Part shown: positions 23,741-64,000 of the stretch, one piece after another
Layout: every line of letters starts with the position of its first letter
Numbering within the stretch: position 1 is the first letter of the stretch
Source: Clostridia bacterium
GTDB lineage: Bacteria; Bacillota; Clostridia; UMGS1883; UMGS1540
Length of the DNA stretch: 64,000 bases
Direction of reading: 5' to 3'
Assembly (NCBI GenBank): GCA_017442155.1
Contig: JAFSAU010000012.1
Span: 1 to 64,000 of the forward strand
Position numbers and translations under genes: made by a program
Notes under the pieces: model-generated
Told to the model about the DNA's origin: nothing
What the model saw: only the letters and a program-made list of their open reading frames with translations
The model's database searches: none

Positions 23741-24620
23741 TGAACCGTTTGCGGTATTCTCCCGGCGTACAGCCTTCGCTCCGGCTGAAAACCCGACGGA
23801 ACAGCTTTTCGTCGCTGTACCCGACACGCTGGCAGATATCCCGGACAGTAAGGTCAGTGGATAAGAGCAGACGGCCAGCCTCTTTGTTCCTGATTTGCTG
23901 AATATATTCCGTAACACTAAGGCCCGTTGTTTCTTTGAAAAGGGTGCAGAAATAATTAGGAGAAAACAGGGCAATGCGGGAAAGCTCATTCAGTGAAATG
24001 CGCTGGCTATAATTTTTTTCGAGGAAGCGGATAGCATTGTGAATCCCCTCGCGTCGTATCCGTATCGTTTCATTTTCATCGAATTCGGAGTGGTACAGAC
24101 GGGAAAGTAAAACCAGAAGCTGGAGCGCAAAGCCGAACAGCATAGTATCACTGTCCGGTTTGAGTGCCGAACATTCACGGGCCATGGAGCTGAGCACCTG
24201 GCGGAGCGCACCGTCCGCATCCCGAAGATAAATATAGGGAGAACGGTTTACGTCCCCGGGAAACAGCACATTGTAAAAAAGGTCTGCCGCCATATCACTG
24301 AACAGACTGTAGTCTACTTGCTCGGCCGCAGCATTCAGGAAGAGAAGGCAGTCGTAATGCCGCAGGGGATCTGCCGGATTATCGGACTGAAAGGTGTGCC
24401 ATGCGCCTATGGAGAGAATAAAAATATCCCCCGGAGCTACACGGAAGCTTTCGTTACCAATCTGGTGTATTCCGGACCCATGGGTGATATATACAATTTC
24501 CAGAAAGCTGTGCTCATGTACCGCTATCGAAGGGTCCTTGTTTTCCTGTACATGGATAAAGCAGTTGTTTCGGTATCTGTCGCTGAGTGCCCGTTTTTTA
24601 TCAAGAAGCAGCCTGTCCAT
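23724..24620 (-). CDS. AraC-family regulator divergent to rhamnosidase
   Basis: 298-aa regulator: cupin-type ligand domain (about 15-150, with VHEHSFLEIVYITHGSG) and C-terminal AraC DNA-binding domain (about 195-292; ISLNELSRIALFSPNYFCTLFKETTGLS and RDICQRVGYSDEKLFRRVFSRSEGCTPGEYR). Start is the ATG at 24618-24620 with AAGGAGGGG; the longer frame to 24764 is not supported. It is transcribed away from the GH78 alpha-rhamnosidase with a shared upstream region, so control of rhamnoside use is the natural prediction. The last few residues may come from the IS3 fragment that abuts the gene. Confidence 0.92.
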   Translation of the reverse strand: MDRLLLDKKRALSDRYRNNCFIHVQENKDPSIAVHEHSFLEIVYITHGSGIHQIGNESFRVAPGDIFILSIGAWHTFQSDNPADPLRHYDCLLFLNAAAEQVDYSLFSDMAADLFYNVLFPGDVNRSPYIYLRDADGALRQVLSSMARECSALKPDSDTMLFGFALQLLVLLSRLYHSEFDENETIRIRREGIHNAIRFLEKNYSQRISLNELSRIALFSPNYFCTLFKETTGLSVTEYIQQIRNKEAGRLLLSTDLTVRDICQRVGYSDEKLFRRVFSRSEGCTPGEYRKRFKPSKY

Positions 24621-24724
24621 TGTAATTCCCCTCCTTCTTTTATATTGTATCATGAATTTTGTTTCTTTGTCAATTTCTTTGTCTTTTTTCCAAAGAAATA
24701 CCCCTGCGTTCAGAAAATTATCCC

Positions 24725-24753
24725 TTGAAGCAGAAATGAAAATTTGGTATACT
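24725..24753 (+). promoter_or_regulatory. Sigma-A promoter for GH78 gene
   Basis: TTGAAG (24725-24730), 17-base spacer, TATACT (24748-24753), 31 bases before the start. It lies in the divergent intergenic region with the AraC regulator gene. Confidence 0.75.
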
Positions 24754-24783
24754 GAAAAAAACATGCGTAGAGGGGTAGAAAAG

Positions 24784-26976
24784 ATGCAATTTAATTTTAT
24801 AACAGCTTCGCCGGAGCTTCGGGAAATTCATTCGGACATAAAAGAAATTCTTTGCGGCCGTCCCATTTATTTTCGCCGTACCTTTTCGGTCGCAGAAGCA
24901 GGGGAGGCCACGCTGTACATAACCGCACTGGGAATTTACGAAATTTATCTGGACGGTGAGAAGCTTGGACAGGAGTTCCTGTCACCCGGCTGGACGGATT
25001 ATAACAGCCGTTTGTATTACGATACATTTTCGCTCACGCTTTCACCGGGGAAGCACTGCCTTGCGGCTGTTGTGGCCGACGGATGGTATTCCGGTAATGT
25101 GGGGGGCGTCGGACCGCGGCATTATGACGAGATTGTGGCACTGGGTGCGCGGCTTCTCCTGGCTGACGGCACGGAAATGGGGACGGATACATCCTGGCGC
25201 GTAGGCGTGGGAGGTTATTTATACGCGGACATCATTCACGGTGAATGCTATGATGCCGGCGCAGAGCCGGCGGGCTGGAAGACATTGTCGTTTGACGACA
25301 GCGGCTGGGAAAATGCCGCGAACACATACAATTATGTCACGGGTACGAAGCTTCTGCCCCGTTTTCATCCCGGTGTGCGGCATATGCATACACTCCGGGC
25401 CGTAGCGGAGACCCGCGATTCGCACGGGAATTACATTTATGACCTGGGACAGAATATGAGCGGTGTAATCCGCATCCGTCTGAAGGCCCGAAAAGGCGAT
25501 AGAGTGACACTTCGTTACGGTGAAATGCTGGACGGGACGGATTTATACACCGCAAATCTTCGTACGGCCCGTCAGACAGACGTGTTTATCGCGGGCACAG
25601 ATGGCGAAGAGGAATATATGCCTCGTTTCACCTTCCATGGCTTCCGCTATGTGGAATCTTCCATGCCGCTTTTGTCGGTAGAAGGCATAGTGCTTTATTC
25701 CGATTGTGCGCAGACGGGATTTATTGAAACTTCTTCCGCTCTCGTGAATCAGATTTTCTCCAATCAACTTTGGGGACAGCGGTGTAATTTTCTCGATGTT
25801 CCTACGGATTGTCCCCAGCGGGATGAGCGCATGGGCTGGACGGGGGATACACAGATTTTCGCCCGGACCGGAATGTATAATATGGATACCTGTGTGTTTT
25901 ATCAGAAATATATGCAGGATATGCAGGATGCTATTTTTGCGGACGGCTCCGTGCCCAATGTTGTGCCCCGTGTGTTTAAAAGCCGCGGACAGCTTATTAC
26001 GGGAACAGGCACGGCGGCCTGGGGGGATGCAATTTTTATTATTCCGTACCATTTATGGAAAATGTATGGGGATGCGGAAACCATGAAGGAGTGCTATGGG
26101 GATATGCTTCGTTATTTTGCGTATCTGGAGGCACGGGCAGAAGGGCATCTCCAGCCGGATATGGGATATGGCGACTGGCTGAACTCCGATGCTGTAACCG
26201 CAAAGGCACTGGTAGCCACAGCGTATTTTGCATATGATGCACAGCTTCTTGCGGAAATTGCCGAAGAGCTTGGGAAAAAGGAAGATACACTGTATTTTCG
26301 CACAGCGTATGCCGCAATCCGAAACGCATTCCTAAAGGAATACGAAGAGGAGGACGGACGGCTTTTGGGAGATACACAGTGTGCGTATGTACTGGCCCTC
26401 CGGTTTGGGCTTTATAGTAATAAAGAAAAAACAGCGAAGCATCTTGCCCGTGCCATACGGGAACGGGAGAACCACCTGTCCACGGGCTTTGTGGGCACAG
26501 CGTATCTCCTGCCTGTGCTGTCGGATGCGGGCATGGATGAGCTTGCCTACACGCTTCTTCTGCAGGAAACCTACCCATCCTGGGGATACTGTATTTCCCT
26601 GGGTGCGACAACGATGTGGGAACGTTGGAATTCCTATTCGGATACCGACGGATTCGGGGATGTGGGCATGAATTCCTTTAACCATTATTCCTTTGGTGCT
26701 GTTGCGGAGTGGATGTATGCTTATATGGGCGGCATCCGGCCGCTTGCTCCCGCCTTTACTCGGTTTGCGGTGGAGCCGCATATGGATAAGCGGGTGCCCC
26801 GTGTCTCGGTCCGCTACAAAAGTGCCAGCGGCGAAATTGCTGTTTCCTACGACACAGAAAAGGGAATATGCACCGTTACAGTACCGGAGGGAACCACAGC
26901 CCGGGTTTCGCTCCGCGGTAGCATAGCAGAGCTTGCCGGCGGTACACACACGCTCACGTTTGCACCGATTCAATAA
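24784..26976 (+). CDS. Alpha-L-rhamnosidase (GH78)
   Basis: 730-aa retaining-free inverting glycosidase of family GH78 that releases terminal L-rhamnose from plant glycans or glycosides. N-terminal beta-sandwich accessory domains (about 40-250; AEPAGWKTLSFDDSGW, YDLGQNMSG) precede the (alpha/alpha)6 barrel. The proposed general acid is the Glu in DCPQRDERMGWTGD and the base the Glu in GATTMWERWNS. No signal peptide, so it acts on imported oligosaccharides or glycosides. Start ATG at 24784 after GAGGGG; an in-frame ATG at 24763 is an alternative. No rhamnose transporter or rhaABD genes are in the window. Confidence 0.93.
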   Translation: MQFNFITASPELREIHSDIKEILCGRPIYFRRTFSVAEAGEATLYITALGIYEIYLDGEKLGQEFLSPGWTDYNSRLYYDTFSLTLSPGKHCLAAVVADGWYSGNVGGVGPRHYDEIVALGARLLLADGTEMGTDTSWRVGVGGYLYADIIHGECYDAGAEPAGWKTLSFDDSGWENAANTYNYVTGTKLLPRFHPGVRHMHTLRAVAETRDSHGNYIYDLGQNMSGVIRIRLKARKGDRVTLRYGEMLDGTDLYTANLRTARQTDVFIAGTDGEEEYMPRFTFHGFRYVESSMPLLSVEGIVLYSDCAQTGFIETSSALVNQIFSNQLWGQRCNFLDVPTDCPQRDERMGWTGDTQIFARTGMYNMDTCVFYQKYMQDMQDAIFADGSVPNVVPRVFKSRGQLITGTGTAAWGDAIFIIPYHLWKMYGDAETMKECYGDMLRYFAYLEARAEGHLQPDMGYGDWLNSDAVTAKALVATAYFAYDAQLLAEIAEELGKKEDTLYFRTAYAAIRNAFLKEYEEEDGRLLGDTQCAYVLALRFGLYSNKEKTAKHLARAIRERENHLSTGFVGTAYLLPVLSDAGMDELAYTLLLQETYPSWGYCISLGATTMWERWNSYSDTDGFGDVGMNSFNHYSFGAVAEWMYAYMGGIRPLAPAFTRFAVEPHMDKRVPRVSVRYKSASGEIAVSYDTEKGICTVTVPEGTTARVSLRGSIAELAGGTHTLTFAPIQ

Positions 26977-50140: not shown

Positions 50141-50692
<552 letters not shown>

Positions 50693-50703
50693 GGGGTGAC
50701 AGA

Positions 50704-51642
50704 ATGAAACAATTTGATGTAACAGCACTCGGCGAAATTTTGATAGACTTTACGGAAAGTGGTCAAAGTGAAAACGGGATGCGTCTTTTTGAACAGAATC
50801 CCGGTGGTGCCCCTGCAAACGTTCTTTCCGCCGTGGCACACCTTGGCGGCCGGGCGGCCTTTATTGGCAAGGTGGGGCGGGACATGCACGGCAAATTTCT
50901 GCGGGAGACTGTGGAAAAATGCGGTATTGACACCCGCGGCCTTGTGGACACGGATAAAGGTTTCACCACCCTTGCTTTCGTTGCACTCTCCGGTGGAGAA
51001 CGTAGCTTTTCTTTTGCCCGGAAACCGGGTGCTGATACGTTACTTACGCCCGATGAAGTGGATTATGGCCGAATTTCTGAAAGCAGGATTTTCCATATTG
51101 GGTCTCTGTCCCTGACGGATGAGCCGGTGAAAAGTGCCAGCCTGGCGGCACTGGAATTTGCGCAGAAGGAAGGCGTGATCATTTCTTACGATCCGAATTA
51201 CCGCGCTTCCCTTTGGGAAAGCCAGGAAAAAGCGGAGCGTGAGATGCAAAGTATTCTTCCGTATGCTGATGTGGTAAAGATTTCAGAGGAAGAAACTGCA
51301 CTGATTACGGGTCATGCTGACCCTGTGGAAGCGGCTGGCGGTCTCATTTGTAAAGGCGCGGCTGTGGCACTTGTGACAATGGGCGGCGAAGGGGCGATTG
51401 TAGCCACAAAGGAAGGAACAATGCATATCCCTGCTATGGGCGGAAAGCCCGTGGATACCACCGGTGCAGGGGATGCTTTTATGGGTGGCTTTCTGTTCAA
51501 ACTGGCAAAATCAGAAAAAAAGCCGACGGACATTTCTCTTAAAGCGGCAGAAGAATTTGCCAAATTTGCCGCGAAGGTTGCCGGTGTTTGTATTTCCCGT
51601 CGGGGTGCAATCAATGCAATGCCCGGACTGGATGAGCTATAA
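50704..51642 (+). CDS. PfkB-family carbohydrate kinase (fructokinase-like)
   Basis: 312-aa ribokinase-family kinase. Substrate motif NPGGAPANVLSAVAHLGG (about 35-52) and the ATP/anion-hole motif DTTGAGDAFMGGFL with catalytic Asp. It follows the isomerase by 11 bases, so the pair probably converts mannose (or lyxose) to a phosphorylated ketose for glycolysis. Start ATG at 50704 behind GGGGTG. The 204-base gap downstream contains no gene; it leads into the GH106-like gene. Confidence 0.92.
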   Translation: MKQFDVTALGEILIDFTESGQSENGMRLFEQNPGGAPANVLSAVAHLGGRAAFIGKVGRDMHGKFLRETVEKCGIDTRGLVDTDKGFTTLAFVALSGGERSFSFARKPGADTLLTPDEVDYGRISESRIFHIGSLSLTDEPVKSASLAALEFAQKEGVIISYDPNYRASLWESQEKAEREMQSILPYADVVKISEEETALITGHADPVEAAGGLICKGAAVALVTMGGEGAIVATKEGTMHIPAMGGKPVDTTGAGDAFMGGFLFKLAKSEKKPTDISLKAAEEFAKFAAKVAGVCISRRGAINAMPGLDEL

Positions 51643-51846
51643 AGGGTTGAAGTTATTATATGCAGCCTGAAAGGAATTATCCGAACCGGATTATGGTGCG
51701 GAAGACGCAGGAAGGCTGACGCTTTCCGAGGATGAAAATCCAAAAGATGCCGAAAATACTGCTTTTCAGGCAGGTTCGGATGACTCCTGTCAGGCTATGG
51801 ATGTAGTAAACATACCGATATTTTTCATATTAAGAGGTGAAGGAAA

Positions 51847-54800
51847 GTGAAAGTAGAACAGTTCTGGAATCCACCGGCATCGTTTCGTTCTGCCCCTTTC
51901 TGGGCTTGGAACGGGAAGCTGGAAAAGGAGAAGCTGGCAGAGCAGATAGAGGCATTTCATCAGATGGGCTTCGGCGGTTTTTTTATGCATGTGCGATGCG
52001 GCCTTATAACGCCGTACCTTGGCGAAGAATTTATGGAAATGGTGCGTTTTTGCGCGTCAGAAGCTGAAAAGAGAGGTATGTACGCTCATTTGTACGATGA
52101 GGACCGGTACCCCTCCGGCCACTGCGGCGGTCAGGTGACGGCTGAAAGGCGGTTTATGGGACGGGAAATCCAATTACATTACAAACCGATTGAAGGTGCT
52201 ATGGAAGAAAATGCGGCCATAGAATCGGGTGGAGTGTATCTGGTAGGAAGATATGATATTGATTTTACGCCAAAGCACACTATGCGCAATTTCGTCTGTC
52301 TTTCGGAAGGGGAGAAAGCCCGGCATACGGAGGTGTGGATTTACAGTGTCTGCCTGCCCTCCTCCGGCTGGTTTAATGGGGCAAATCATCCGGACGTTTT
52401 AAATCCTGAGGTAACTACCTCCTTTATTGAAAAGACCCACGAGAAATATAAGGCGGCAGTGGGGGATGCGTTTGGAAAAGCAATTCCATCCATCTTCACC
52501 GACGAACCGAATGTAGGCCATATGGGTTGGTTTGAAACGGGATGCCAGAATCCGTATTCCTTATTCTGGACGCCACGGATGCCGGAAATTTTTGAGGAGA
52601 AGTACGGATTTTCTTTGCTTGAAACCCTTCCGGCGGTGTTCTTTAATGCGGAGAACGGGGAAACCGGCTACATACGCTACGCGTTTCTGGATCTGACAGC
52701 AGCCCTCTTTAAGGAAGGTTATTCAGACCAGGTGGGTGCCTGGTGCGAGAAAAACGACCTGGAATTTACGGGACATTTCCATTCCGAGGGCAGTCTTGGT
52801 GGACAATGTTGTACTTCTGTAGACCTTTTGCGACAGTACGCGGCATACCATATTCCCGGCATTGATATGCTGGATGCGTCGGTAGAGCTGACAACAGCAA
52901 AGCAGGCGATGTCTGCCGTACATCAGTACGGCCGGAAGGAAGCCATGACAGAGCTGTACGGTGCCTCGCGCTGGAGCTGTGATTTCCGCCGCTATAAAAT
53001 GCAGACAGACTGGCAAACGGCCATGGGTTTTACAAAACGGGTACCGCATCTGGCCTTTTATTCTATGGAAGGGGAGTCAAAGCGCGATTATCCGGCTTCC
53101 ATTGGCTTACAGTCTCCCTGGTATAAGGAGTTTGCACAGTTGGAGGACCATTTTGCCCGGACAGCATGGGCTATGGCAGAGGGCAGAGCGGTAGTAAAAA
53201 TTGCTGTGGTGCATCCGATTGAATCCTACTGGATGGCTTTTGGAACAGATGATGCCGCATCCGGCGAGCGGAAACGCCTGAACGAACTGCACAAAGATGT
53301 GGCCGAATGGCTTTGCCGGAATCATCTGGACTACGACTATCTTTCTGAAGCCCTTTTACCTCAGCTTTGGGACGGAGAAAAGGTGGGGGAAATGCAATAT
53401 GAAGTTATTGTTGTACCCGGTTGTACCAGCATCCGGAAATCTACGGCAGACATACTTTGGGATTTCAAAAAGCGCGGGGGCCGTGTGATTTTCATGGGCG
53501 ATTGCCCTATATATTCTGGCGGAAGACCCACCGAAACCCTTCGTTCTCTTTATGAAGCTTCCGTCCGGATTCCCTGCGGACAGTACGCGCTGACAGAGGC
53601 GTTGGAGGCGTACAGAACGGTGGAAATCCGAAGAAATAAAAACAACTTTAATCCCGAGGGGGCGCCGGCCGGTGCGTATGTGTACGGTATGAGAGAGACC
53701 GGGAACGGCGGCTGGCTGATGATTGCAGAAGCTGCACCGAAGCCGAATTATGATAGTGTCGGCACGGAAAAATTATTTATTCGCATCCGTGGAGAATATG
53801 CTGTTTGCTTGTACAATACCCTGGAGGGCAGAAAAGAAAAAATAAAGTATCGATGGGAAGATGGATGGACCTGTTTTGAGAAAGAAGTACACCCGATGGA
53901 AAGCCTTCTTGTTCGTCTTGGTGAGGAAGCAGAAGGGGAAGCGGAGACTGCAATAAGAAAAAGCGTGACATTCGGGGAGGAAGCCCGGTACTCACTTTCA
54001 GAAGAAAATGTCCTGGTACTGGATGTGGCTGAATATGCGCTGGACGATGCTCCTTTTGAAGAAAAGGCAGATATTTTTGAACTTACGGATATCCTCTGTA
54101 AACGCGTTGGGATGGAGGTAAACCGCGGCCGGTATACACAGCCTTACTGTAGAAAAAAGAGCGAGGAACATACACTTCGTCTGCGCTACCGTTTCTATAG
54201 TGCGATGGAAACCAATGCCGCACTGGCGCTGGAATTCCCGTATGAGACAGAAATTTACCTTGGCGGTAAAAAAATAGAGAATAACCCGGAGGGATATTAT
54301 ATCGACCGCGCCATTCACAAAATTCCCGGTCTTCCTGTCCAAAAGGGGGAAAACATACTGGAAATTACAATGCCTTTTACGGATAGCATACAGCCGCAGG
54401 TTATGTATCTTCTTGGTGATTTCGGCGTATCGGTAAAGGGTACGCGCGCCGAAATCGTGCCGAAAGAAGAGTCCCTTTTTGTGGGGGACGTGTCGCGGCA
54501 GGGGCTTCCTTTTTATGGAGGCAATATCAGCTACACCTTTGAAGTGGAAACGGAAAAATGCACTGCGGCAGTGGAATGCAGCTTTTTCCGGGCCGCTGCC
54601 CTTCATATTCTGGTAGACGGCGAAGATGGAGGACTTATCTTTGCACCGCCGTACCGGAGCCGGAAACTGGAGCTTTCAAAAGGGAAACATACGGTGACGG
54701 TGACCGCACTTGGCACGAGGGAAAACACACTGGCCCCGCTTCACGCGGTGAAAACGGATGGCTGGTATGCCTACTGGCAGTATCGCCCGGCGGATAACGC

Positions 54801-54867
54801 CCGGTCCGACGGCTACCGACCATCGGAAGTGGGACTTCTGAAACGGCCGCGTCTGGTCATTTTCTAA
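51847..54867 (+). CDS. GH106-like large glycoside hydrolase
   Basis: 1006-aa enzyme resembling family GH106 alpha-L-rhamnosidases and their relatives: opening WNPPASFRSAPFWAWNG, MGFGGFFMHVRCGL, HLYDEDRYPSGHCGG, IFTDEPNVGHMGW and FTGHFHSEGSLGG in a TIM barrel, then LEDHFARTAWAMAEGRAVVKIAVVHPIES and C-terminal beta domains (from about 690). No signal peptide, so cytosolic. GTG start at 51847 after AAGGAA. A second rhamnosidase type beside GH78 in the same window suggests rhamnose-rich plant glycans (for example rhamnogalacturonan) as diet. Family assignment is from pattern memory. Confidence 0.8.
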   Translation: MKVEQFWNPPASFRSAPFWAWNGKLEKEKLAEQIEAFHQMGFGGFFMHVRCGLITPYLGEEFMEMVRFCASEAEKRGMYAHLYDEDRYPSGHCGGQVTAERRFMGREIQLHYKPIEGAMEENAAIESGGVYLVGRYDIDFTPKHTMRNFVCLSEGEKARHTEVWIYSVCLPSSGWFNGANHPDVLNPEVTTSFIEKTHEKYKAAVGDAFGKAIPSIFTDEPNVGHMGWFETGCQNPYSLFWTPRMPEIFEEKYGFSLLETLPAVFFNAENGETGYIRYAFLDLTAALFKEGYSDQVGAWCEKNDLEFTGHFHSEGSLGGQCCTSVDLLRQYAAYHIPGIDMLDASVELTTAKQAMSAVHQYGRKEAMTELYGASRWSCDFRRYKMQTDWQTAMGFTKRVPHLAFYSMEGESKRDYPASIGLQSPWYKEFAQLEDHFARTAWAMAEGRAVVKIAVVHPIESYWMAFGTDDAASGERKRLNELHKDVAEWLCRNHLDYDYLSEALLPQLWDGEKVGEMQYEVIVVPGCTSIRKSTADILWDFKKRGGRVIFMGDCPIYSGGRPTETLRSLYEASVRIPCGQYALTEALEAYRTVEIRRNKNNFNPEGAPAGAYVYGMRETGNGGWLMIAEAAPKPNYDSVGTEKLFIRIRGEYAVCLYNTLEGRKEKIKYRWEDGWTCFEKEVHPMESLLVRLGEEAEGEAETAIRKSVTFGEEARYSLSEENVLVLDVAEYALDDAPFEEKADIFELTDILCKRVGMEVNRGRYTQPYCRKKSEEHTLRLRYRFYSAMETNAALALEFPYETEIYLGGKKIENNPEGYYIDRAIHKIPGLPVQKGENILEITMPFTDSIQPQVMYLLGDFGVSVKGTRAEIVPKEESLFVGDVSRQGLPFYGGNISYTFEVETEKCTAAVECSFFRAAALHILVDGEDGGLIFAPPYRSRKLELSKGKHTVTVTALGTRENTLAPLHAVKTDGWYAYWQYRPADNARSDGYRPSEVGLLKRPRLVIF

Positions 54868-57785: not shown

Positions 57786-58760
57786 TTAATAGCCAACCTT
57801 TTCCCAGCATTCGAACGGAGCAGCTAACTCTTCGCTGATATAAACTTGTGTCTTTTTCGTCTGGAGCATAGAGCTCGGGAGATATGGTGTAATCGGGCCA
57901 TGTGTGCAAAGACGGCTTGTCATTCTCTGCCAGGAAGAGAATGTACCGCAAGTTGCAAGTGCATGAACCTCAATTCTTTCCTTTGCGCGCATTACATCGA
58001 GAGGTCCGATTGTTGCAGCGCAAGGCGGAACGTTTGCAATGTCACCAGACTGACCGAAAGTACCGTTTAAGGAGTTCTGCATGATGGTCATGGGGTGAAG
58101 TTTTACGATTTGTGCCGGCTGATTCAGCCATTCTTCGATATCACCGGAGCCAATAAATTCAGGAATGGGATCTACGAATGCCATGTGACCAGCCCAGCCG
58201 GGAGAAGTAGATGCAATGTCAGCACCTGTACCTTCTGTAATGTCATCAATAATCTTAGAATAATCCTTGATGTTTGCATTTGTGGGGAAGTGAACATTTT
58301 CCATCGGCATGCGGAGCTTTTCATCGATCTGGTAGTAGAGATACTTGATCATGGAATGTGCAAAACCTGCTTCGTATGTGATGGGGGCGATGTTACCGGA
58401 TTCGTCTGCCCACTCATCTTCTGCAACAAGGTGAACCTTGCTGCAATCAACGCCGAAGTAGTTAATGAGCTGTGCAAGGGGAATGTAAGTGTCGGGTTCA
58501 GGGTTGCCGAGAATCATGGTGAAGCTCTTGCCGGCTTCGGATGCCGCTTTGAGACGCTCGAAAAGCGTTGCAATCAAAACGGGATGGGGGTTCATCATAA
58601 CTTTTACGTTGAACTCCGGATGCCACCAATCTTCTCTCTTTTCGAGATCCTTGCCACTGAGCGAGCGAACATATTCGCAAACTTTCTTGTCCTTAAAGGG
58701 AACAAACTCATGAGGCTGGAAATCAAATTTTGTTGCGGGATCAGTAATGAAATTAGTCAT
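57786..58760 (-). CDS. Divergent NagB-like sugar-phosphate isomerase/deaminase
   Basis: 324-aa member of the NagB/RpiA superfamily, longer than the usual 240-270 aa. Matches: GNPEPDTYIPL (phosphate loop region), AEDEW with Asp115 at the position of E. coli NagB Asp72, and STSPGWAGHMAFVDP with His192 at the catalytic His143 site. But Asp141 of NagB corresponds to Ala190 and Glu148 to Asp197. So the fold is clear while the classical glucosamine-6-phosphate deaminase active site is altered. Coupled to the NagA-like gene by a 4-nt overlap; a related amino-sugar phosphate is the likely substrate. Confidence 0.8.
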   Translation of the reverse strand: MTNFITDPATKFDFQPHEFVPFKDKKVCEYVRSLSGKDLEKREDWWHPEFNVKVMMNPHPVLIATLFERLKAASEAGKSFTMILGNPEPDTYIPLAQLINYFGVDCSKVHLVAEDEWADESGNIAPITYEAGFAHSMIKYLYYQIDEKLRMPMENVHFPTNANIKDYSKIIDDITEGTGADIASTSPGWAGHMAFVDPIPEFIGSGDIEEWLNQPAQIVKLHPMTIMQNSLNGTFGQSGDIANVPPCAATIGPLDVMRAKERIEVHALATCGTFSSWQRMTSRLCTHGPITPYLPSSMLQTKKTQVYISEELAAPFECWEKVGY

Positions 58761-59893
58761 TTTACGATTTCTCCTTTTAATATAGTATTTTTAACATTGA
58801 ACCATTGATCAACAATGATTACGTTCGCAAGATTGCCTTTTTTGATTTGTCCGATTTCGGGCATATTCAAAAGGCGTGAGGGGTTTAAGGATGCATATTT
58901 AAATACATCACATACGGAGCCGCCTGTGTGAACCATCATGTTGTGACAGGCAACGTCTAAAGTCAGTTTGGACCCGGCGATATCGCCGCCCCAGTCAAAA
59001 TTAATGTCAAAAGCTTCTTCAAGACCGGGCAGTGGTGGACCATCAGCAACAAAAGAATCTGCAATCAGAATAATTTTGTCCTGCCCTTTAATTTTCTTTA
59101 CAAGACGAATCATGTACGGATGAACGTGCACACCAAAAGAGTCACAAATCAGCTCCGCATAAATTCCGTCATTATAATTTACGGTTTCGTCAACGCAAAC
59201 GCCGCGTACTTCAGGATAGTTTTCCAATGTACCTGTGGCATTGGTGTGATGTGTGCCTAACTTTAAGCCATAGGGCATTAGCGCTTCAATTTGTTCGGGG
59301 GTTGCTTCCGAGTGTGCAACAGAGAACACGATTTCCGGAATTTCGCGCTTTACGTACTTTACAAAATCCAAAATGCCTTCGCGTTCGGGTGCAACGCACC
59401 AGACTTTTGCAAAATCCTTTGCTGCTTCTACAACTTCTGCATAGTCTTTTTCTACAATTGCGTCTTTCCAAACGTTCTTTTCTTTATCACAACCAAAATC
59501 AGGATTTAAATACGGACCTTCCATATAAACTCCGATGATATTTTTGCATTCGCCATTTTGAATTGCATCTTTAAACTTTTTGATGGCCGTGAGGTGCTCT
59601 TCTTTGTTCATGCTATAGAAAAGTGCCGGTAAAACCGAGGTTACACCGTGATTGAGAAGGGTTTTCGAGCATTTTACGGGGTCATCGTGAAAATATGTAT
59701 CGCCATCAGCATGCGTGTGAATATCGATAAGTCCGGGGCCTACAAAGTTCCTATTCGCATCGATTACCTCCGAACCTTCAGGCACGGGCATTTTTCGACC
59801 GAAATCTACAATCTTATCACCCTCAATCAAGAGCGTTGCATCGGGAATATAGTGGTCTGGCATTACAAGCGTTGCGTTTTTTATGGCAATCAT
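58757..59893 (-). CDS. NagA-like N-acyl-amino-sugar-6-phosphate deacetylase
   Basis: 378-aa amidohydrolase of the N-acetylglucosamine-6-phosphate deacetylase family. Metal and catalytic residues visible: His59 and His61 (DIHTHAD), Glu125 (YMEGPYLNP), His194 (SVAHSEA), His215/216 (GTHHTNATG) and Asp279 (LIADS). The usual KGAH segment after the ..GP.LNP motif is replaced by DFGCDK, so it is somewhat divergent. Overlaps both neighbours by 4 nt in a tight three-gene operon. Confidence 0.87.
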   Translation of the reverse strand: MIAIKNATLVMPDHYIPDATLLIEGDKIVDFGRKMPVPEGSEVIDANRNFVGPGLIDIHTHADGDTYFHDDPVKCSKTLLNHGVTSVLPALFYSMNKEEHLTAIKKFKDAIQNGECKNIIGVYMEGPYLNPDFGCDKEKNVWKDAIVEKDYAEVVEAAKDFAKVWCVAPEREGILDFVKYVKREIPEIVFSVAHSEATPEQIEALMPYGLKLGTHHTNATGTLENYPEVRGVCVDETVNYNDGIYAELICDSFGVHVHPYMIRLVKKIKGQDKIILIADSFVADGPPLPGLEEAFDINFDWGGDIAGSKLTLDVACHNMMVHTGGSVCDVFKYASLNPSRLLNMPEIGQIKKGNLANVIIVDQWFNVKNTILKGEIVK

Positions 59894-61251
59894 GCGTTGC
59901 CTCCTAACTTCGTGAGAAGCTCGCGACCTTCGCGAATGATCTGCTCGGCAGTACCAGCCTTGAAACGGGAGGTACCTGCTTCGTATCCACCTTCATCATA
60001 AGAATCCTGCATCGGATAGTAACCTTCATAACCATTTGTGCAGCAAACAGGCAGAACCATATCAAATTCTTCAGCTTCCTTAAGACCACGGCCAATGCCG
60101 GTAAAGGGTTCACCAGGAATACCAACAAAGGCAACGGGGCCAAGCTGAATGCCTGTTAAAGGAATTTCAAAATAGTCCGGTCCATTTTCAAGACGAACCA
60201 CGCGGCCTGCAGCAGCGACAACGGTTGTAAGCATCATGCCTTTATACGGGAGTTCATCATCACGGCCCTCCGTGTGAAGTGCATGAATGCGTTTTGCCTC
60301 TACAAGCTCTTCGGGTGTTCCTTTGTTTGCAGCAACCTTCATGTTCTGTTCAATTGCCTGCATGGAATCTACATCAACATATTTGACTTTATCATAAACC
60401 TGTAACACACTGCCGGCGATAACTCTGCCGATATAACGGGCATGGGCATACCCACGGGCAACATCGTCAAAGTCAATGAACATGTCGTTCATTTCGCCGC
60501 CAACTGGATTTACGTTAACGTGGTTTACATCGCCTTGTGCGCCATTAAAGAAAATACATTTTGTTCCGTCAATGGCTTTTTCAACTGTTCTGCGAACAAA
60601 TCCGGGCCAGTCAGAAGAAATTTTGCAACCGCCCACAACGTCGGGGTGGTTACCAAAGTTTACGAGAACAAGACTGTCTGCACCTTCTCTGTCAAAACGA
60701 AGAACGTTTACTCTTTCATCTACATCACCGATAGGTCCTTCAATTTCAGGATTGTTAACACCGGGATTTGTTTTTACACTGCCATCCTTCATGCGGAAAC
60801 GACGGACAAAAGCCACACGGTGTGCCTGACCCAAGCCATAACCCATTTTTGCCGGTTTCAAATCATCTAAGGCAAACTGAACCGCATCTACAATACGCTT
60901 CTTCAAAAATGTTAAGTATTCTATTTGTAAGTCTGTCAGTTCTTCGCCGGCACGAAGACTTGCGGCGGGACCGGTATGCGTATGGGTTGCAGAAATAAAA
61001 ATGGATTCTTTTGTCAAGCCCAATTTTTCGGAAATCAGAGAACGAAAATCATCCATCAGGGCTTTGCTGAAGCCAAGAGCATCAACGCAAACCAAAACGA
61101 TTTTTTTATCGTCCATGGAGAAAGCGATTGCATTCGCTTCCAGATCATCTAAAATTCCATCTGCTTTTCTGACCTGATAATAACCGGAAATATCAATGCC
61201 CATCATGGGATTCACATTTACACGTCCAAAACCAGCTTTAAAATTAGCCAT
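59890..61251 (-). CDS. Neutral/alkaline ceramidase-like hydrolase
   Basis: 453-aa protein of the neutral/alkaline non-lysosomal ceramidase N-terminal-domain family: FKAGFGRVNVNPMMGIDISGYY start, FISATHTHTGPAA with the zinc-binding histidines near residue 97, NFGNHPDVVGG and FFNGAQGDVNHVN. No signal peptide. In an operon with NagA- and NagB-like enzymes it is unlikely to act on ceramide; cleavage of an N-acyl or amide bond in an amino sugar or glycolipid is more plausible (inference). Start chosen as the second ATG (61251), 8 bases after AAAGGAG, rather than the one at 61257 only 2-3 bases away. Confidence 0.82.
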   Translation of the reverse strand: MANFKAGFGRVNVNPMMGIDISGYYQVRKADGILDDLEANAIAFSMDDKKIVLVCVDALGFSKALMDDFRSLISEKLGLTKESIFISATHTHTGPAASLRAGEELTDLQIEYLTFLKKRIVDAVQFALDDLKPAKMGYGLGQAHRVAFVRRFRMKDGSVKTNPGVNNPEIEGPIGDVDERVNVLRFDREGADSLVLVNFGNHPDVVGGCKISSDWPGFVRRTVEKAIDGTKCIFFNGAQGDVNHVNVNPVGGEMNDMFIDFDDVARGYAHARYIGRVIAGSVLQVYDKVKYVDVDSMQAIEQNMKVAANKGTPEELVEAKRIHALHTEGRDDELPYKGMMLTTVVAAAGRVVRLENGPDYFEIPLTGIQLGPVAFVGIPGEPFTGIGRGLKEAEEFDMVLPVCCTNGYEGYYPMQDSYDEGGYEAGTSRFKAGTAEQIIREGRELLTKLGGNA

Positions 61252-61319
61252 ATCCATTCTCCTTTTTGTTTCGTTTTACTTTTCAGATTCCCCGGGGCTT
61301 TTCAAGGCAAGAAAACAAT

Positions 61320-61339
61320 GTGTTTTCCCGGGAAAACAC
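61320..61339. promoter_or_regulatory. 20-bp perfect palindrome (operator) in leader of amino-sugar operon
   Basis: GTGTTTTCCC and its exact complement GGGAAAACAC meet at a central CG. It lies about 15-35 bases downstream of the expected transcription start, a repressor position. Symmetry and central CG are typical for LacI-type regulators. Confidence 0.75.
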
Positions 61340-61360: not shown

Positions 61361-61389
61361 ATTATATCATTCATAGGAAAAAAAGTCAA
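61361..61389 (-). promoter_or_regulatory. Sigma-A promoter of amino-sugar operon
   Basis: Minus strand TTGACT (61384-61389), 17-base spacer, TATAAT (61361-61366). Confidence 0.88.
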
Positions 61390-62243: not shown

Positions 62244-64000
62244 AAACGTATTGCAAAAAACGAATACGCCAATGACATTAAAGCAGACGATGCAACCTTG
62301 GCGGCTCTTATAAATGAGGGCAAAGAAATCGGAGGGAAGTCGGCAAAAATCGCATCCGAAATCGAGACCGAGCGGAAGAACGGTAAGGAAGTATCGCGTG
62401 AAAAGGTCAAGCAGCTTATTGAGAGCAACGAAATTTATATAAAGGCAGAGGAACAAGTGGCTGCTAAAACAGCACCGGAGCCTGATACATTAGAGCAGGC
62501 GGCACGGGAGGTTGTTGCAAGGAAAAACAAAACAGACGCGGCTAATCTTCTGGAAGCGCGGAGACGCGGCGAAGTGAACGGTGAAGTGCTTGACAGGCTC
62601 ACAGAAAACGGTGTGGAGATAACCGCAGACGAGGTCAGAAAGGTTACGGGTTTTGGAGAAGAAGGGGCGAAGCTTGTAACCAAGCTTGCAAACCAAGAGG
62701 GGAAAACCTTTACGCAGGCGGTGAAGGCGGTTAAGAGTGCGTATGATGCAGGCTTTACGGATTTAAAGGCATCAAAGGTAAGCTTTGTGAATGCTGTGCA
62801 GAAAGCCGCGTTTGATGCTGGAAAGATAGACCGAGGGGTGCAGGACAGAGAAGCTGTTGCGAGGTCTTTGCATGCAACGGCACGACAAGGCGTATTTACC
62901 GAGAATGAATACACAAAGGATTTCACAGAACCCGAACGCAAAATGATTTCTACGTTTGCCAAGAGCCTGAAGATGGACGCAAGCGTGGTTGACAAGGTTA
63001 TCGCAAATGTAGTAAACGGCAATCCTGTTGAAGCGAACGCACGGCATCAGGATGGAGAAATGGCAATATCAAGCACCGCCCAAAAGGTTCTGTTCGAACT
63101 TGTTATGCATGAGGGCGGTCACCGCATGAAACAACTTGCACCTATGGAATTCGGGGAGCTTGCAAACGCCTTGTATGCAAGAGCTGCGCGCAGAAGCGCT
63201 AAGCTTGGTGTGCCGCATTCAACATCTCTTGACAGCATAAAAGCCGAGCATGATAACGCAGGCATTATCATGGACACAAGCGGTTATTTAGAAGAATTTG
63301 CAGTAAGAGAGCTTGAAACTATTTTTTCAAGCGCAGAGGAATTTAACAATTGGTATGCGGAGATAAGCGGAAATCAGAAGGCAAGGACAGGCTTTGAAAA
63401 ATTCATGGATTGGGTGCATAAGGTTATTGAGGATATCAAGAGAACCTTGGACTATACAAAAATGTCAAAGGCCGAAAGAGCCGAAGCCAAAAGAGCAGTT
63501 GCTGAGCTTGAGCGCATTAAGGAACTTTACGCCAACGCATTCAAGGCGGCAGAAAATGCCGCTGCAGAGAGGGCAGAGGCGCAGGCTAAACAGAGTGCAG
63601 AGATACAAAAAAACACCGCTTCCAACGGTGTGGCCTTTGATTTAAAGAAAGCCGATGTGGATGCACTTCACTCTATTGGCAGAAAATCGGTCAACTCTTT
63701 CACCGAAGAGGACATAAATAAAGCAAAAAAATTTGCCAACAGAATGTGGAAAGAGCTCGGGGTAAAATCACCATTCTTCCGTGCGTGGTTTGGAGACTGG
63801 AGGGCAAACGATAGTAAGACGAAAGTAAATATCGTTGAAGTAAATAAAAAAATAGTTCCGGATGATGCTCTTCCTAAAAACATAGGGGTTCTTTTGCGAA
63901 CTAAACTTAAAAATAATGAACTGTTCAGGGGAGAGGTAATTAACACTGATACGGGCTATAAAATTCAAATCGGAGCTTTCGGGTACAACGATACACTTAC
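62244..64000 (+). pseudogene. Start-less frame of phage/ICE large polyvalent protein (continues past window)
   Basis: One reading frame stays open from 62244 (just after TAA at 62241) to the window end, about 585 codons, with no plausible start codon or ribosome binding site at its beginning, so it looks truncated at the 5' end or fused to foreign DNA. Content: Lys/Glu/Ala-rich helical segments, a metalloprotease-like LVMHEGGHRMKQLAP (HExxH pattern) with a downstream EEFAVRELE acidic candidate, a coiled-coil region (about 63450-63600) and an SPFFRAWFGDW module followed by FRGEVINTDTGYKIQIGAFGYNDTL, as in large polyvalent or MuF-associated phage proteins. Left edge of a prophage or conjugative-element remnant is likely. 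Confidence 0.72.

Follow-up and report, generated by a model that had tools for sequence, protein, structure and literature searches.

A window of 64,000 nucleotides from a Clostridia bacterium (contig C8 of a 2.43-Mb genome in 51 contigs) carries an operon of three genes, encoding a short ceramidase-fold protein (CERx), a NagA-like amidohydrolase (NagAx) and a NagB-fold protein (NagBx). Judged by alignment, NagBx has kept the core catalytic residues of glucosamine-6-phosphate deaminase (NagB) and has lost its canonical phosphate site. Since all 25 NagBx sequences compared lack the phosphate loop, Arg172 and Lys208 (Escherichia coli numbering), and since a ketose-type FGGY kinase is a recurrent neighbour, the substrate of NagBx may well be without a 6-phosphate. 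We tentatively propose that the operon is the opening part of a catabolic route for amino sugars that leaves phosphorylation until last; within this scheme we infer the deamination, the absence of phosphate from the substrate, the sequence of steps and what the neighbouring genes do. A previous interpretation from the letters of the window alone (the sequence-only reading) had suggested a new amino-sugar pathway at this site, a suggestion that our results support in part.

NagBx keeps the catalytic core of NagB and lacks its canonical phosphate site

NagBx matched no Pfam family at E ≤ 1 and was not among the PF01182 matches of its genome, and its best score against the NCBIfam NagB models was 23.8 bits (cut-off 326). 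When a profile of 22 NagBx relatives was compared with the PDB at E ≤ 0.1, it matched only glucosamine-6-phosphate deaminases (12 sequences, best E 6.6e-9) and no lactonase. The structural model of NagBx was of low confidence (pLDDT 61); with it, Foldseek returned human NagB (1ne7, 8e-9) as the best match, and VIA-align gave Z scores of 15.6 to Bacillus subtilis NagB (2bkv) and 13.6 to a 6-phosphogluconolactonase (1vl1).

We compared residues in 25 NagBx sequences with those in 32 canonical NagB proteins of PF01182, 30 of them from 148 clostridial genomes and two from the window genome itself. In NagB, His143 opens the sugar ring and Asp72 transfers the proton; both are kept in 25/25 NagBx and 32/32 canonical sequences, and correspond to His192 and Asp115 of the window protein. 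The sequence-only reading had pointed to two other positions, Asp141 and Glu148, as the decisive changes. Its numbering was borne out by our alignment (Ala190 and Asp197, respectively), but we rejected these positions as the key change, since both also vary among canonical clostridial NagBs: of the 32, 30 have Asn and two have Asp at position 141 (Ala, Thr, Pro or Ser in NagBx, never Asp or Asn), and 31 have Glu and one has Asp at position 148 (Asp in 23/25 and Glu in 2/25 NagBx). An excerpt of PMC4281351 places Asp141 and Glu148 among the E. coli NagB residues that bind the allosteric activator.

The phosphate site differs throughout. The TG(S/G)T loop, with its T41-G42 in 32/32 canonical sequences, was found in 0/25 NagBx; Arg172, present in 29/32, was likewise found in 0/25; and Lys208, a lysine in 32/32, is glutamine in 25/25. 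A basic residue adjoining Gln278 is conserved in NagBx (Arg in 24/25 rows, Lys in 1/25). According to an excerpt of PMC8369159, Ser37, Thr38 and Lys194 hold the phosphate in Streptococcus mutans NagB and a Lys194Ala change abolishes computed binding; the mapping of these three residues onto the NagB phosphate positions compared here is our own. Set beside NagB (PF01182, with E. coli NagB and B. subtilis 2bkv as examples), NagBx shares the fold, the Asp72 and His143 equivalents and an acidic residue at position 148, whereas its phosphate loop is two residues shorter, Arg172 and Lys208 are lost, an N-terminal extension of ~50 residues is present and its clade is separate.

The sequence-only reading had suggested placing the protein in a phylogeny with characterised NagB. 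In our tree NagBx formed one clade (support 95/98), and a branch with 100/99 support set it and two other NagB-like groups apart from canonical NagB; the program flags the branches between the groups as long. The Lys208-to-Gln replacement also occurs in both of the other types, in 11/11 members of a sister group and in 3/3 of the L20 type. The sister family (312 amino acids, motif CHIAFWEP) has equally lost the phosphate site and resembles NagBx in having a deacetylase and a sugar kinase close by: at example loci in related genomes, a PIG-L deacetylase gene adjoins it at L018:1483-3135, and a PfkB kinase gene at L014:336-2337. It differs in sequence (26–31% identity to NagBx) and in the families of both the deacetylase and the kinase. 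The window genome has a gene set at L157:9934-14805 (contig C4) with an FGGY kinase, a NagA-like protein, an L20-type NagB-like protein without the phosphate site and an electron-transfer-flavoprotein-like protein, just beyond which lie PfkB kinase and class II aldolase genes.

In a class-level search of 391 genomes, 40 matched NagBx at E ≤ 1e-20; by our own reading of the table 19 of these have NagBx (identity at least 38%) and the rest have the sister type, with three genomes carrying 4–5 matches each. The closest named records are metagenome-assembled genomes (MAGs) of Clostridia/Oscillospiraceae, whose titles often mention gut samples from goat, sheep, deer, yak or buffalo.

The two partner proteins resemble NagA and neutral ceramidase

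NagAx exceeded the cut-off for Pfam Amidohydro_1 (65.2 bits against 25), in agreement with the NagA-type assignment of the sequence-only reading, but fell short of it for the NagA equivalog model TIGR00221 (175.7 bits against 225.65). Its metal and catalytic residues (H59, H61, E125, H194, H215 and D279) were present in 79/79 relatives, across which the position of the E. coli catalytic Asp273 and the metal ligands are kept. NagAx thus shares with NagA the metal/catalytic residues, overall length and fold family. It differs in its score, in an HxH motif where E. coli has Gln59/Asn61, in a longer loop past metal His215 and in Lys137, which replaces E. coli NagA His143 and is Arg or Lys in 68/69 close relatives; this site is probably the "changed loop" of the sequence-only reading. 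Asn218 and Ala219 are found in 77/79 and 79/79 relatives. The column of E. coli Arg227 is variable, and a near-invariant Arg230 (77/79) lies a few residues away; a smaller alignment placed Arg230 opposite Arg227 itself, so the outcome depends on the alignment. Because both NagAx and NagBx score under the NCBIfam cut-offs, and because two PF01182 NagB genes and five further NagA-like genes lie elsewhere in the window genome, we agree with the sequence-only reading that they are not the standard N-acetylglucosamine (GlcNAc) breakdown pair.

CERx scored 40.3 bits against Pfam Ceramidase_alk (cut-off 32.1) and 34.5 bits against the neutral ceramidase equivalog NF041649, far under the cut-off of 1200. 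Its AlphaFold2 (AF2) model (pLDDT 88) aligned with neutral ceramidase 2zws over 399 residues (VIA-align Z 40.1, root-mean-square deviation 3.3); neutral ceramidases overlay the model across 396–399 residues with Z 36.6–40.1, and all other listed chains were below Z 7. Five residues (H92, H94, H204, E383 and Y413, numbered from the start at 61257) are invariant in 24/24 aligned proteins, and a phmmer alignment set E383 and the NGYEGY motif opposite their ceramidase equivalents. We take the invariant positions to be the ceramidase zinc ligands. No signal peptide was evident on inspection by eye, as the sequence-only reading had also noted for this ceramidase-family protein, and CERx is probably intracellular. 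Compared with solved neutral ceramidases (2zws and 4wgk), it shares the catalytic-domain fold and the metal-ligand positions, but it has 455 residues (61257 start) rather than 630–670, is only 17–21% identical, lacks an evident signal peptide and sits among sugar-metabolism genes. A second, distant CERx family (26–28% identity to the window protein) is encoded directly downstream of NagBx at L009:2436-3809, L036:9044-10372 and L142:9428-10738.

Sugar-metabolism genes recur around NagBx

The same three-gene order is repeated in a congeneric species (G004; CERx 84%, NagAx 58% and NagBx 73% identical to the window proteins) and at many other loci, which argues that the operon is not a chance arrangement and answers the suggestion of the sequence-only reading that its conservation across genomes be examined. 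To count neighbours we took the best 80 of 302 relatives plus 19 loci picked from 20 in other genomes (L146, a duplicate of L024, was dropped), called open reading frames with our own hexamer-scoring script, and obtained an anchor at 98 of the 99 loci. Within 8 kb of NagBx, these 98 loci held NagAx in 72 cases, CERx in 31, FGGY in 29, TIM in 26, YjbQ in 26, SIS in 25, DeoR in 24 and FSA in 13. After grouping at 90% identity into 24 sequence clusters, the counts were 17 for NagAx, 12 for FGGY, 9 for CERx, 8 for DeoR, 6 each for TIM and YjbQ, 5 for SIS and 4 for FSA. The families are a xylulokinase-like FGGY kinase, a TIM protein (PRK04302), a KpsF/GutQ-like SIS protein, YjbQ, FSA and an AgaR-like DeoR protein. 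A crude estimate of the chance of finding FGGY in 12/24 clusters is 6e-12, or 1.6e-8 at doubled copy number, with loci taken as independent; the copy numbers of 2 for TIM and 3 for CERx used in such estimates are assumptions, not counts.

Of FGGY, TIM, SIS, YjbQ and FSA, one or more were present at 40/98 loci and at least three at 25/98. At locus L042, NagAx, NagBx, FGGY, TIM, SIS, YjbQ and FSA follow one another on a single strand with gaps of 1–53 nucleotides. Genes for ribose-type sugar ABC importers stand beside NagBx at L127 and L128 and would bring in sugar without a phosphate. Other amide hydrolase families also adjoin NagBx, namely Creatininase (L131) and M20 (L134, L141 and L142), and divergent NagBx loci hold L-arabinose or fucose isomerase-like genes as well. 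In the window genome, away from the operon, contig C33 has a YjbQ-SIS-TIM set at its edge, and contig C1 carries an FGGY gene (64% identical to the kinases found with NagBx), a fucose isomerase-like gene and a DeoR gene.

Two further kinds of gene were seen near NagBx: those for 2-oxoacid dehydrogenase complexes (E1, E2 or E3; L087, L088, L145, L095 and L037) and for lipoate-protein ligase (L037, L079-L082 and L085).

NagBx is highly constrained and has probably moved between lineages

The operon genes behave as a mosaic. Relative to the window, a congeneric genome (G005) has NagBx at 97% and NagAx at 83% identity, and a genome of another family (G022) has NagBx at 99%, NagAx at 93% and CERx at 64%. 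Among locus pairs with NagBx at least 93% identical, median identities were 59% for NagAx, 56% for FGGY, 59% for TIM, 70% for SIS and 80% for YjbQ. NagBx has probably been transferred between lineages, because its identity contradicts that of RecA: the window genome shares 99.7% NagBx identity and 66% RecA identity with G217 (54% and 31% at 4-fold sites); in five genomes of other families (G021, G022, G027, G243 and G306) the ranges are 95–98% and 70–73%; and in two of the same family (G002 and G006) NagBx is 71–72% and RecA 81–83% identical. This discordance points to horizontal spread combined with strong purifying selection; some of it could stem from MAG contigs that were misbinned.

Where NagBx is 95–99% identical in amino acids, its synonymous sites are far diverged, with 4-fold identity of 52%. 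We tempered the idea that such conservation singles NagBx out: at matched synonymous divergence it ranked 2/38 and 5/35 among gene clusters, and 16/34 at lower divergence, so that it is highly constrained, not unique. A constant NagBx beside changing amidases would be consistent with one shared step supplied with substrates that differ in acylation or shape.

Weighing a proposed kinase-last route against its alternatives

In the route that we propose, an N-acylated amino sugar would enter unphosphorylated and lose its N-acyl groups to the CERx amidase and the NagAx amidohydrolase. NagBx would then open the ring with His192 and transfer a proton through Asp115, yielding ammonia and a ketose, which the FGGY kinase would phosphorylate and the TIM-like, SIS-type and FSA-type enzymes would isomerise and cleave. 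The conserved gene context fits the stepwise removal of acyl groups that the sequence-only reading had envisaged; its conversion of an amino sugar phosphate probably errs in the phosphate, given the absence of the site in 25/25 sequences. Several observations weigh against our proposal. At 58/98 loci none of the five core genes lies within 8 kb (contig ends contribute to this number), the kinase cluster of the window genome is not adjacent to the operon, and the recurrent neighbour YjbQ has no role assigned in the scheme. Given the low confidence of its model, NagBx may have an alternative phosphate site. The substrate of NagAx, too, may carry an anion, because NagAx keeps Asn218-Ala219 and the near-invariant Arg230 near the Arg227 column: an excerpt of PMC8970586 gives Asn235, Ala236, His242 and Arg243 as the phosphate contacts of human AMDHD2, and in our own mapping Asn218-Ala219 falls on that Asn-Ala pair. 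NagAx therefore speaks neither for nor against an unphosphorylated substrate.

These NagAx residues, together with the conserved basic residue next to Gln278 of NagBx, lend some weight to a rather unlikely alternative, in which NagBx would be a deaminase or isomerase of an amino sugar that carries a phosphate or another negative charge (such as a hexosaminuronic acid, or a sugar phosphate accommodated in a novel manner) and NagAx would act on the same anionic substrate. Bacterial NagAs are reported, again in the excerpt of PMC8970586, to accept GalNAc-6-phosphate and GlcNAc-6-sulphate too. Against it, all three canonical phosphate elements are absent from 25/25 NagBx, and the kinase that recurs nearby is an FGGY protein of the ketose/polyol type. 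That NagBx has the NagB/6-phosphogluconolactonase fold but acts as a hydrolase or aldose-ketose isomerase instead of a deaminase, the amidohydrolases serving some other substrate, we consider unlikely: the fold is indeed common to lactonases (Z 13.6 with 1vl1, 15.6 with 2bkv) and neither Asp nor Asn ever occupies position 141, but the profile matched deaminases alone at E ≤ 0.1, the Asp72 and His143 equivalents are invariant and NagAx is the commonest neighbour.

Two other explanations appear very improbable. A divergent but ordinary conversion of GlcNAc-6-phosphate to fructose-6-phosphate would account for the adjacency of NagA- and NagB-like genes and for the intact metal ligands of NagAx, but is hard to reconcile with the lost phosphate site, the separate clade on its 100/99 branch, the genome's own pair of PF01182 NagB genes at other sites, and the additional ceramidase-fold gene and FGGY context. 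We give similarly little credence to the idea that CERx removes a fatty N-acyl chain and that N-acylated lipids or glycolipids, not sugars alone, are what the operon breaks down; the neutral ceramidase fold and conserved metal-ligand positions speak for it, whereas the probably intracellular location of CERx, its short length and the sugar-metabolism genes around it speak against it. The operon is a variation on the NagA/NagB theme, most likely with a substrate that is unphosphorylated or differently charged.

Layout and upstream region of the operon

The mechanically called open reading frames lie on the minus strand at 61257-59890, 59893-58757 and 58760-57786, and both junctions are 4-nucleotide ATGA overlaps, just as the sequence-only reading had described. 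For CERx the start at 61251, which the sequence-only reading had used, is most likely better than that at 61257, because an AGGAG motif lies ~7 nucleotides upstream of the former ATG and just 1–2 nucleotides upstream of the latter (Table 1).

Table 1. Features of the operon and its upstream region (positions in the window).
Feature	Position	Strand	Basis
CERx, short ceramidase-fold amidase, first gene of the operon, 453 aa	59890..61251	-	Pfam, AF2 model, VIA-align, invariant residues
NagAx, NagA-like amidohydrolase, 378 aa	58757..59893	-	Amidohydro_1, metal/catalytic residues
NagBx, NagB-fold protein without canonical phosphate site, 324 aa	57786..58760	-	Profile, Foldseek, residue table, tree
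Putative promoter TTGACT-17-TATAAT, with TG ahead of the second hexamer	61361..61389	-	11/12 matches
Perfect 20-bp palindrome GTGTTTTCCCGGGAAAACAC, possible operator, between promoter and first gene	61320..61339	.	Unique in genome

Promoter-like sites in the region are no commoner than in shuffled sequence (7 found, 8.2 expected). The palindrome has a single site in the genome even with up to 3 mismatches allowed, and the upstream regions of related operons show no enrichment of palindromes (8/98 against 107/1960 random stretches); on these grounds we rejected an operator shared by related operons.

Elsewhere in the window, genes at 50144-54867 and 24394-26973 encode a D-lyxose isomerase-like protein, a PfkB protein, and GH106-like and Bac_rhamnosid alpha-L-rhamnosidases, a set that indicates use of rhamnose glycans. 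A large open frame of at least 567 amino acids (62298-64000) runs off the window end and has no Pfam match.

Discussion

We recognised no paper on the operon or on a phosphate-free NagB among the titles and abstract openings of the PMC literature, which is weak evidence since subscription papers mostly lie outside it. A broader proposal, which we put forward more speculatively than the route at this one operon, is that gut Clostridia possess a widespread kinase-last pathway for non-phosphorylated N-acyl amino sugars, in which variable amidases (CERx, NagAx, M20 or Creatininase) would feed one highly conserved NagBx, whose ketose product an FGGY kinase would phosphorylate, and that these NagBx proteins would be the first free-amino-sugar deaminases of the NagB fold. 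Such a pathway could serve sugars that cannot be phosphorylated at position 6, for example 6-deoxy amino sugars or amino-uronic acids.

If the kinase-last route is correct, amino-sugar breakdown would have a second logic, in which removal of the nitrogen precedes phosphorylation of the sugar, and a clade of the NagB superfamily whose best family matches are glucosamine-6-phosphate deaminases would have a different substrate. It would also help to explain how Clostridia of the herbivore gut use amino sugars that are closed to the Nag pathway.

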